64,000 nucleotides of DNA from Citrus sinensis (Eukaryota; Streptophyta; Magnoliopsida; Sapindales; Rutaceae), in the NCBI RefSeq assembly GCF_022201045.2, contig NC_068561.1, positions 25,302,501-25,366,500 on the forward strand, written 5' to 3'. This document shows positions 6,991 through 44,216 of this stretch, piece after piece; positions within the stretch are counted from its first letter, which is position 1, and every line of letters begins with the position of its first letter. A model generated the notes under the pieces. It saw nothing but the letters and a program-made list of their open reading frames with translations. It had not been told where the DNA came from and searched no databases. The translations under genes and the position numbers were made by a program.

Positions 6991-7152
6991 AATATTTAAC
7001 AAAAATACATAAAAAGTCAATTTTACCTTGGAGCATAAAATACGATTTTACTTTTTAAAAATGAAGAACAAAAAAAGACGATTTAATTATAAAATTACCC
7101 CCAAAAGACGACAAGATGATTTTATCCTTTAAAAAGAAAGAACAACAAAAGA

Positions 7153-7514
7153 GCATTTTATTGCTTGGCAATATGGGTTCCGCAGAGTGTACGTGGAAGT
7201 AGACAGCATGTGTGTCATGAGGTTAATCTCCAATCCAAATCCTCCGATCAATGAGCATTTTATTCTCATTCAAGAAATCCAAGCACTCCTCCGGCGTGAT
7301 TGGATAACCAAAGTGGAGCATATCTATCGAGAAGCCAATGAAGCAGCTGATTTCCTTGCTTCGTACAGTTTTTCCTTTCCCTTGGGTTTACATTGTTTTC
7401 AATTTATTCCTCCAAATATGCTTAGCATATTGACTAATGATGTTCATGGGGTTGCACACTCCCGCTTAGTGTTGCCTTAGCTCTCTTATGAGCCCTTTAA
7501 TGATCAAAAAAAAA
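7153..7514 (+). mobile_element. 5'-truncated LINE (L1-like) 3' end with RNase H domain
   Basis: An open frame from about 7154 to the stop at 7478-7480 encodes the last ~108 residues of a plant L1-type ORF2. These are the C-terminal half of an RNase H domain (VYVEVDSMCVMRLI with the acidic VEVDS, then HIYREANEAADFLAS with the N..AD pair), followed by a short tail. After the stop comes a brief 3' UTR ending in TTAATGATC and an A-tract (about 7506-7517). A 20-bp direct repeat, AAAGAAAGAACAAC followed by AAAAGA, flanks the insert (7133-7152 and 7515-7534) as the target-site duplication. The 5' end is truncated, as is typical for target-primed reverse transcription. It is a dead fragment, not a host RNase H gene. 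Confidence 0.85.
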
Positions 7515-15894: not shown

Positions 15895-17040
15895 GTTTGC
15901 TTAAATGTGGCGGCTTGGTTGATATTAGGAGGTTTTGTTAGTTATTACATGTAACAGACACTCAAATAACTTAGGGCAAAACAAAAGCAAGAGAAGGGGT
16001 TTAAGGAAGAAGACGTGGGTTAACTTTCGTGCTAGGGTTTTATGTTTGGGTTTTAGTGTGCAATTGGAGGCCCAATTTTTTGGATGACGAAAAATAATTT
16101 TAAAAAAAGTTTATTTTATTTCTAGTTTCTATTTCTTTTCCTTTTTTTATTTAAAAAAAAAAATCTTAACTGATTTAGATTTACCAGACAATCCGTTTTG
16201 CAGCATGAAAACTCATGCTTTCCAAGCCACTAGCGAAAAATTGTACGACGCATACGACCCTAATAACTTTTCTTGCATTCTTGCTTATAAGTACCCCACT
16301 GCTGTATGAAGATTTCATGAATAGAGTTCAATGGCAGAAAGAGGAAGTTGTAATGTTTCAACCACCTCCTCCCCTTCATTTGCATTTCTAAGTTGTATGT
16401 AAGAATTGGATGGAACTAAACAGATTAGTAAGATCAAAATATTCAGTTGCTGTTTAGTTTCCTCCAATATCTTATCTCCAGCTTCTAAACTATATATATA
16501 AACCAAGTTCTGAGCTGCAGGGATTGGTGAATCAAAACTTGTGCTTGGTTTACTCCAATATCTTTTCTTCAGCTTCAAAACTGAAACGATAGATCTTCAG
16601 CGAAGCAGTGTTCAGGCATTTTACAAGTTGTAAGTAAGAATTAGAGGAAGCTAGACACATTAGTAGAATTAAACATTCTATTTAGTTTCCTCTATAATCT
16701 TACCTCCAACTTCCAAACTACTAAGTACAAATATAAGTTCTTCACTTTGAAATAAAAGTTACATATTTTGTTTCCTAATAGCCCAATTTAAGTTTTCATC
16801 ACCATGCAGTTTTATCACAACAACTGGATAAAAACAAACATTTAGCTTGGCCTTGGATCTTTTTGGTTGGAATTTAAGACTGAATGAATAGGCAGAAAAT
16901 GAAACACAACAAATATGAAGTAAAATTGACCTGAACCTGTAGGTAATCCGAGAACAGTATTCCATCTTACAAATGGAGGATAGAATTCCAAAACCCCGTT
17001 AAAAAGCCCTGAAAGTGACACAACTAACATTTTTTTTCTT
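15895..17040. other. Spacer between the THADA start and the cullin-3 stop
   Basis: The left part contains the THADA 5' UTR and promoter; a reverse-oriented TATA box is not obvious. The right part, near 16800-17040, is probably the cullin-3 3' UTR. The middle holds the diverged direct repeats described separately. No gene is supported. Confidence 0.4.
16381..16741 (+). repeat. Diverged direct repeat, two and a half copies
   Basis: The segment 16381-16511 (AAGTTGTATGTAAGAATTGG ... TTTAGTTTCCTCCAATATCT ... AAGTTCT) recurs at 16617-16741 (CAAGTTGTAAGTAAGAATTAG ... TTTAGTTTCCTCTATAATCT ... TAAGTTCT), with a partial third copy at 16543-16583 (TACTCCAATATCTTTTCTTC). The period is about 235 bp. No transposon hallmarks are seen, so it is best read as an old local tandem duplication downstream of cullin-3. 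Confidence 0.65.
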
Positions 17041-33810: not shown

Positions 33811-33940
33811 TTTACTTACATTTTAACAATATTGCGGTGGGTTTACATTATTAGTTATGAATAGTTTTTTTTTTTTTTACTTACATTTTAACAATATTGC
33901 GGTGGGTTTACATTATTAGTTATGAATAGTTTTTTTTTTT
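33811..33940 (+). repeat. 65-bp tandem duplication beside the SINE
   Basis: The unit beginning TTTACTTACATTTTAACAAT and ending ATTAGTTATGAATAG followed by a T-run occurs at about 33811-33875 and again at 33876-33940. Apart from T-run length the copies are identical, so the duplication is recent. The second copy runs into the SINE's poly-T. Confidence 0.85.
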
Positions 33941-34118
33941 TTTTGGTTTAAACCATCCGATTTCCGGCGACCGCATTGGGCCCGACTAATTCGGATTCGG
34001 GGTGTAGTCACAGTTAAGGCTCTTTACCCCTCCCAAATGGTGTGTTTAGTGAGGATCGAACCCGAGAGCTCTTCCCACTTACCCAGCCTGCGCCGCCAAC
34101 TGAGCCACAACCGTTTGG
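33930..34118 (-). mobile_element. tRNA-derived SINE with poly(A) tail
   Basis: Read on the minus strand, the element begins CCAAACGGTTGTGGCTCAGT, with an A-box-like TGGCTCAGTTGG and a B-box GGTTCGATCC about 45 bases on, the internal RNA polymerase III promoter of a tRNA-derived head. A non-tRNA body follows and ends in an A-tract (the T-run at about 33930-33944 on the plus strand). A 14-bp duplication TTAGTTATGAATAG flanks it (33916-33929 and 34119-34132). It is about 190 bp. I cannot name the family. It shows little decay and the flanking duplication is perfect, so insertion was fairly recent. Confidence 0.87.
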
Positions 34119-42054: not shown

Positions 42055-42069
42055 GGTTCATGATCTACT

Positions 42070-42401
42070 TTTTTTTTTTTTTTGAGACTGATTAATCATC
42101 AGATTACTGCATTACACAGATATTTACAACAACTGCTTATTGTAGCAGAGGTATTGTACTGATATTTACAATCAGATATACATGATTGGGACTTACATTA
42201 TTACAATGAATTCTATGAAGTACATGCCCAATACAAATAATCCCTCACAGGAGAGGATATCCATACTCCACTTACATTTCGCAAGGGAGAAGGATATAAA
42301 GAACATTTAGCCCCCACAATGTTTTTGTGAGGGCTAGAACCGCTGCCCTCACAATGCTTGTGAGGGCAGCAGCCCACCACTTCGGCCTTGGCCGAAGTGG
42401 C
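42070..42401 (-). mobile_element. Retroposed poly(A) element with three 5' hairpins (unclassified)
   Basis: A 332-bp insert is flanked by the perfect 15-bp duplication GGTTCATGATCTACT (42055-42069 and 42402-42416). On the minus strand it ends in a tract of about 15 A, the mark of LINE-style retroposition. Its 5' end (right side) is three consecutive inverted repeats, described separately. The body is AT-rich with a TATATCC-like motif near 42294 and two TGTAAATAT motifs, and contains no open frame. It lacks a tRNA-like A/B box, so it is not a classical tRNA SINE. It could be a retroposed non-coding RNA, a fragment of a longer retroelement, or a new SINE class. Confidence 0.8.
42308..42400. repeat. 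Three tandem hairpins at the 5' end of the retroposed element
   Basis: Hairpin 1: 42308-42319 pairs with 42325-42336 (12 bp, one mismatch that can be a wobble, 5-nt loop). Hairpin 2: 42342-42354 pairs with 42358-42370 (13 bp, perfect; GCTGCCCTCACAA, loop TGC). Hairpin 3: 42377-42387 pairs with 42390-42400 (11 bp, perfect; CCACTTCGGCC). Hairpins 1 and 2 share the arm core GCCCnCACAA, so one probably arose from the other. The three stems are 5-6 bases apart, and the last reaches to within one base of the target duplication. Confidence 0.9.
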
Positions 42402-42416
42402 GGTTCATGATCTACT

Positions 42417-43510: not shown

Positions 43511-44216
43511 AGGGTAATTTTTAAAAACCTCCCCTGAGGTTTGAGGCTGTTGCAAGTAGATGGTGAAAATTATTTTATTTGTAAAAAATCCCCTACCGTT
43601 AGTTAAAATTTTCATTGACTAACTGTTGACTTTAAAAAGACAATATTACCCCCAATAATAGTTTACGTCAGTTAAAATTTCCTTAAAATCTTAAAAAAAA
43701 TAAAATTACAAACATTAAAAAAATTATATTTTATATCAAATAATTAAGATTTGTAATTTTATTACAAACTTAAAAAAAAGTTTATGTCAGTTAAAATTTT
43801 CTTAAAATCTTAAAAAAATTAAAATTACAAACTTAAAAAAATTATATTTTTATATCAAATAATTAAGATTTGTAATTTTATTACAAACTTTAAAAAATTA
43901 CATTTTTATATCAAATAATTAAGATTTGTAATTTTATTACAAACTTAAAAAAATTATTTTAAGATTTGTAATTTTATGTTTTTAAGATTTTAAGGAAATA
44001 TCAATAACTTGATCATAGTGAAAATAATTGTTTTAATTACTTATGAAATTATAAATATTTAGAATTGTAAAATTGGGGGTAATATTGTCTTTTCAAAATC
44101 AACAGTTAGTCAATGAAAATTTTAACTAACGGTAGGGGACTTTTTACAAATAAAATAATTTTCACCATCTACTTGCAACAGCCTCAAACCTCAAGGGAGG
44201 TTTTTAAAAATTATCC
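43511..44216. mobile_element. MULE-type MITE with long terminal inverted repeats
   Basis: The outer ~145 bp at each end are inverted copies: left 43511-43655 (GGGTAATTTTTAAAAACCTCCC...) and right about 44072-44216, whose reverse complement reads GGATAATTTTTAAAAACCTCCC. They match at more than 90% by eye, including CCTACCGTTAGTTAAAATTTTCATTGACTAACTG. The element is flanked by the perfect 9-bp duplication ATTTTTTAA (43502-43510 and 44217-44225). It is 706 bp with no coding capacity. The TIR length and 9-bp duplication point to the Mutator superfamily. Confidence 0.9.
43690..43975 (+). repeat. AT-rich tandem repeats inside the MULE-type MITE
   Basis: The phrase ATATCAAATAATTAAGATTTGTAATTTTATTACAAACTT occurs three times, at about 43733, 43852 and 43905, with spacing of about 53 and 119 bp. 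A fourth partial copy has AAGATTTGTAATTTTA near 43962. TTTGTAATTTTATTACAAA within it is itself nearly palindromic. Confidence 0.75.

Follow-up and report, generated by a model that had tools for sequence, protein, structure and literature searches.

Minus-strand positions 42070-42401 of the window (the whole 64-kb stretch of Citrus sinensis DNA analyzed here) hold a sequence that bears the marks of poly(A) retroposition and opens with three hairpins in a row, which raises the question of what kind of element begins in this way. The original prediction left three readings side by side, namely a new SINE class whose head is not of tRNA type, a retroposed structured ncRNA, and a fragment of a longer retroelement transcript. 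We arrived at a fourth: it is highly probable that the element is a tRNA-derived SINE, mobilised by an L1-type LINE, whose promoter boxes were refolded into hairpins and whose hairpin loops were inverted by template switching. The parts of the window copy are the following.

42402-42416, minus strand: 5' target-site duplication, 15 bp, perfect, adjoining element position 1
42070-42401, minus strand: complete SINE copy of subfamily A, 332 nt including the A14 tail, with its 5' boundary as in most fetched copies
42377-42400, minus strand: hairpin 1, 11-bp arms, 2-nt loop at 42388-42389 in the inverted AA state here
42377-42388, minus strand: A-box-like sequence AGGCCGAAGTGG (family: TGGCCGAAGTGG), largely identical with the 3' arm of hairpin 1
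42342-42370, minus strand: hairpin 2, a stem of 18 pairs counting G-U, 13 bp of them a perfect core, closed by the loop GCA (42355-42357)
42331-42341, minus strand: B-box-like sequence GGTTCTAGCCC (subfamily B: GGTTCAAGCCC)
42308-42336, minus strand: hairpin 3, a 12-pair stem that overlaps the B box, with AAACA as its loop here versus AAGCA in the family
42084-42307, minus strand: SINE body, without a T4 run and without a long frame
42070-42083, minus strand: A14 tail (14 T on the plus strand)
42055-42069, minus strand: 3' target-site duplication, the second copy of the 15-bp duplication

Several features that had been predicted for this copy were confirmed: the 15-bp perfect duplication (GGTTCATGATCTACT, identical at 42055-42069 and 42402-42416), the minus-strand terminal A-tract, the three packed hairpins, which lie side by side within the first 94 nt, and the lack of an open frame, no stop-to-stop frame of at least 100 aa overlapping 42070-42401. 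The arm said to be common to hairpins 2 and 3 is indeed common in this copy and is partly accidental, hairpin 3 having CCCTCACAA here versus CCCCCACAA in the family. The insertion had also been called recent, which was only moderately right, as the copy has 97.3% identity with the subfamily A majority sequence and differs at 2.7% of positions (one loop inversion accounts for two of the differences), while the closest copies show 0.3% difference.

The genome searched comprised 299.7 Mb in 11 contigs, with almost the whole sequence in nine contigs of 25-52 Mb. A search with the whole element gave 691 candidates, and the 40 places that were scored, its own place included, matched at 93-100%; the body query gave 630 candidates and the head query 263, with 40 scored for each. 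The hairpin-1 pattern (up to 3 mismatches) had 161 forward and 155 reverse matches and its reversed control 0, and since this palindrome is matched on both strands, the number of heads is about 160. With the 3' end pattern (within 3 mismatches) there were 151+115 = 266 matches (control 0), and judged by this end the genome contains at least about 260 relatives, the listed places occurring on all nine large contigs. The sequence was neither single-copy exonic DNA nor were all of its copies found inside an LTR element or a LINE, and in size and dispersal it behaves as a SINE (332 nt, non-coding, many dispersed copies), truncated copies such as L038 and L050 being present as well. Without duplicates, 133 copies aligned over 150 bases or more were fetched, some through the head and others through the body, and six further heads were obtained; 105 headed copies start at BLAST coordinate 1-3, and 103 at 1 or 2. 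Subfamilies A, B and L084-type were distinguished (B matching L084 at 81-83%), and the least diverged copies belong to subfamily A.

When characterizing the hairpin loops, we found that the same loop occurred in two opposite orientations. Among 70 perfect-stem places, the hairpin-1 loop was TT in 62, AA in 7 and AC in 1, with TA and AT absent; the hairpin-2 loop was GCA in 23, TGC in 9, GGC in 3, GTA in 2, ACA in 2 and GCT in 1 of the 40 perfect-stem places listed with letters, a count that leaves out 51 further zero-mismatch places listed without letters. Exact reverse complementation turns TT into AA and GCA into TGC, GGC (3/40 places) stands two of three bases towards TGC, and hairpin 3 was inverted (AAGCA to TGCTT) in L128 and L170. 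Both hairpin-1 states were seen at one locus, L105 (C3:45755163-45757964), where two oppositely oriented copies, separated by 1.6 kb, carry TT and AA, respectively. Altogether 18 of the 155 scored hairpins 1 and 2 carried inverted loops (hairpin 1 and hairpin 2, respectively: 7/50 and 5/45 in A, 1/27 and 3/12 in L084-type, 0/13 and 2/8 in B), with 15 (hairpin 1) and 40 (hairpin 2) of the 105 copies dropped because the stem motif was unmatched or the loop was in another state.

These loop variants might instead have been passed down from different source genes and reassorted among the copies by recombination, with no repeated inversion at all, an explanation that we regard as unlikely. On a quick tree of the bodies alone, the 8 AA copies need 8 changes and the 10 TGC copies need 9, and when weak branches were dissolved the forced changes (AA and TGC) were at least 5 and 8 at SH-aLRT 80, only 3 and 5 at 90, and only 2 and 3 at 95, so the weakness of the deep branches leaves some room for inherited markers. 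However, the nearest scored body relative was uninverted for all 18 inverted copies (8 AA, 10 TGC), this relative having TT or GCA in 17 cases and ACA in the case of L168. In addition, TGC was present in A, L084-type and B copies, and in B it sits between the B-specific hairpin 1 and the B box, so that recombination could have placed it there only by crossing over twice within some 50 nt. Independent point changes would be expected, by a rough estimate, to produce fewer than 0.001 cases each of AA and TGC. Repeated exact inversion of a loop between inverted arms, here with perfect arms and in independent events, is a signature of template switching, and we infer that a polymerase switched template between the arms and in this way inverted the loops again and again.

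Similar events were known from other systems. Passages of one study (PMC8794818) describe, for MIR633, a template switch in which an inverted duplicate creates a stem and the loop is later inverted, which resembles the head of the window SINE, although that study concerns microRNA and rRNA genes, in contrast to the numerous copies of a single SINE head considered here. In yeast, according to parts of PMC8604942, spacers of 2-5 nt between inverted repeats with arms >9 bp were inverted, some of them repeatedly and reversibly; arm size, spacer size and recurrence are like those of the SINE loops, whereas the yeast report concerns ten events in coding genes against 18/155 scored hairpins in a single SINE family.

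As to the time of inversion, the inverted copies of subfamily A were no older than the others (median divergence 1.46% vs 1.45%, p 0.59, n=11 and 34), and inverted hairpins made up 5/51 in the least diverged third (0-1.4%), 4/51 in the middle third and 9/51 in the most diverged third (p 0.21). These numbers permit inversion during copy-making and slow later accumulation alike. We offer only tentatively, and with more doubt than belief, the idea that the head was built stepwise from the SINE's own promoter by inverted duplications and that its loops are still inverted at a high rate, mainly during target-primed reverse transcription rather than slowly later on. If so, the family would record in nature how a LINE reverse transcriptase switches template. 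The many parallel loop inversions in one sequence could serve to test the timing of template switching.

The original prediction had reported no A or B box in this element, a statement that fails because words of both boxes are present in the window copy, in subfamily B and in an older relative. The window head has the A-box-like TGGCCGAAGTGG, which reads AGGCC... in this copy since its hairpin-1 loop is inverted, and the B-box-like GGTTCTAGCCC, the two starting 47 nt apart; GGTTCTAGCCC follows hairpin 2 and runs into hairpin 3, and it equals a B box with one change. The head of subfamily B reads TGGTCGGAGTGG ... GGTTCAAGCCC, with a full B box at the correct distance, and in the older relative L174 the A box is canonical, TGGCCTAGTGG, and the start of CGTTCAAGCCC lies 32 nt downstream. 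The canonical A-box head pattern had 8 matches in the genome and none in the control. The SINE-Finder criterion asks for internal A and B boxes close to the 5' end and 25-50 nt apart. In the form RVTGG-N25-50-GTTCRA, 12/13 headed subfamily B copies fit it, 50/61 of subfamily A and 23/29 of L084-type (73/90) fit only with GTTCTA, and neither form was found in 18/103.

Could such words have arisen by chance in a head that consists of hairpins only, is not derived from a tRNA, and is served by Pol II or an external promoter? Some results would suit this explanation: a search with Rfam at permissive thresholds gave no tRNA match in the window element, L129, L130, L134 and L139, the B box of subfamily A has one mismatch (T where a purine is expected), the A box has one extra base relative to the usual spacing, and when the paired box score was tested against 1000 shuffles at two A-box spacings, the usual two-base spacer let a few shuffles (3, 9 and 2 of 1000) reach the score of the window, the A consensus and L130. 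With the three-base spacer, however, 0/1000 shuffles reached it for any of these three, and the canonical A box of L174, the 8 places with its pattern and the full, correctly spaced B box of subfamily B speak against chance as well, so that we consider this explanation quite improbable. For L174 the paired score was reached by 0/1000 shuffles (two-base) and 13/1000 (three-base), and for L124 by 8/1000 with either spacer.

We therefore read the head as tRNA-type because its A- and B-box words, most evident in subfamily B and L174, are spaced much as in a tRNA; the A box may resemble that of tRNA-Leu/Ser. A T4 run, which would stop Pol III, was absent in 4/4 sequences checked. Pol III would transcribe the SINE from its internal A/B-box promoter, and the tRNA cloverleaf would have been lost when the A box turned into one arm of hairpin 1. 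The window element is most likely a tRNA-derived Pol III SINE whose head has been refolded, a state known from Brassica SB1. Excerpts of the report on SB1 (S1) describe a tRNA-derived plant SINE whose RNA lacks the tRNA fold, has three stem-loops and interacts with HYL1, a dsRNA-binding protein (PMC2408557). The likeness lies in a probable tRNA descent, a lost tRNA fold and three stem-loops, and it provides a precedent for a three-hairpin head; as far as descriptions in that source allow comparison, the difference is that SB1 stems are bulged or mismatched whereas the arms of the window family are perfect or nearly so and its loops invert (PMC2408557). By analogy with SB1 RNA and HYL1, a dsRNA-binding role of the citrus RNA is possible. 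Most likely, then, the window SINE is not the new class with a non-tRNA head that had been suggested, and the noteworthy part is the repeated loop inversion; taken simply as a SINE, the family is unremarkable and chiefly of use for annotation. Its head would illustrate how promoter boxes of tRNA type stay readable within a series of hairpins.

Inverted duplicates of segments around the B box would have made hairpins 2 and 3. In nine aligned diverged heads, the second arm of hairpin 2 was missing in seven (L123, L173, L172, L174, L175, L119 and L124), partial in L170 and whole in L171, in a sample biased by the use of L124, itself without this arm, to find six of these nine heads. L123 and L172 have the junction ACAAGCGATTC in common. 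An armless-head pattern had 5 matches, one of them exact (control 0), two of the five in L123 and L149. Such armless heads would fit a tRNA-like spacing that was later given an inverted duplicate of 14-16 nt. L149, of L084-type, has nearly the same junction as L123 and L172, and the absence of its arm is better read as a loss because a derived B box is present. In a crude motif count, 14/105 headed copies from all groups were without the hairpin-2 arm, and in the younger copies L030 and L035 pieces of it were missing. We considered the armless head as the ancestral state and give it no preference over loss of the arm, L149 being better read as a loss and younger copies also lacking the arm or pieces of it in an unrooted comparison. 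Other rearrangements were a different 5' arm in L174, CCACTGGGCC, which still pairs with that copy's own A box, and a hairpin-3/B-box unit of about 35 nt present three times in tandem in L031.

The fold itself is very stable. The 102-nt head folds at -73.6 kcal/mol vs -34.1 +/- 3.6 for shuffles (z -11.0, 0/200), and the whole element has a z of -10.7 (0/100 shuffles). Covariation in the stems, which the original prediction had proposed as a check, was not significant, since among 16 heads 2 pairs changed on both sides and 52/500 shuffles did as well. In all 55 A copies the head diverged less than the body (1.31% vs 2.12%, p 0.0004), many of these copies having been fetched by head patterns, and the signal is not upheld because it vanishes once the set is limited to the 27 A copies that body or 3' queries had retrieved as well (1.17% vs 1.33%, p 0.66). 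Between A and B, differences were found at 3/94 positions of the head vs 19/217 of the body (p 0.09), the head being not clearly more conserved; the old copies L119, L123 and L124 seem head-conserved, a biased impression given that they were fetched through the hairpin-1 pattern. Selection on the fold was thus supported by neither the covariation nor the conservation tests. Very stable hairpins in series could also have an independent function, as parts of a retroposed structured ncRNA or a microRNA precursor, which we hold to be very improbable here: all Rfam scores were 12-23 bits and under the gathering scores (36-115), the copies run into hundreds with subfamilies, and arms of 11-13 bp with loops of 2-5 nt would be short for a plant miRNA precursor.

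The ends of the copies agreed with the retroposition by LINE machinery that had been predicted. Duplications of at least 9 bp, mostly 14-17 bp, were found in 94/103 headed copies, and in 90/94 the duplication stops exactly before element base 1. Fetched copies carried A tails, so that duplication and tail occur together as in a SINE. Further, L124 and L169 lie in a duplicated region in which L169 keeps the empty insertion site: it is without the insert of L124, with matching flanks on both sides. The common first base, the duplications and the empty site indicate that the 5' end is the true end of the element. That the element is a piece of some longer LINE or LTR retroelement is therefore the least probable of all the readings, even though such a piece would share the A tail and the LINE-type target, because the first base is fixed beside the duplication in these 90 of 94 copies.

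The target sites were biased. The base preceding the duplication was a pyrimidine in 88/94 cases (61 T, 27 C), the rest being 4 G and 2 A, and the duplication began with A in 90/94 and had A as its second base in 85/94, an AA start that is partly a product of matching because leading A's of the duplication are indistinguishable from tail A's; the scarcity of G (4/94) is not affected. This bias corresponds to a nick at pyrimidine/AA with priming on the A tail, a pattern that an L1-type endonuclease would leave. In the mobilisation that we propose, an L1-type LINE would nick the target, prime on the A tail and insert the copy, giving duplications of the observed length.

Among the entries listed by literature searches on citrus SINE families and on SINEs with template switching there was no paper on this SINE family, and a text search with the first 12 letters of the element found none either. 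Meng et al. 2020 (DNA Research) reportedly surveyed citrus SINE families, and the present family may already be included in that survey. A citrus TE library contains 57 SINE entries (PMC11397423), and PMC5723288 states that the Satsuma assembly has no SINE and gives 0.00-0.11% in its table.

Within the 64-kb window, 42070-42401 was the only full SINE copy; it lies about 600 bp past, and antisense to, a reading frame that we take to be ABC-transporter-like. An open frame at 7133-7480 encodes a putative RNase H fragment of a retroelement, judging by its translation. A 65-bp unit is duplicated exactly in tandem at 33811-33943 (100% matches), and at 43660-43897 an AT-rich 119-bp unit occurs twice together with an overlapping 56-bp repeat. 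Finally, a MIR2275 precursor was found at 16390-16484 on the plus strand (RF03896, 67.6 bits vs gathering score 60.5), MIR2275 being associated with reproductive phased small RNAs.
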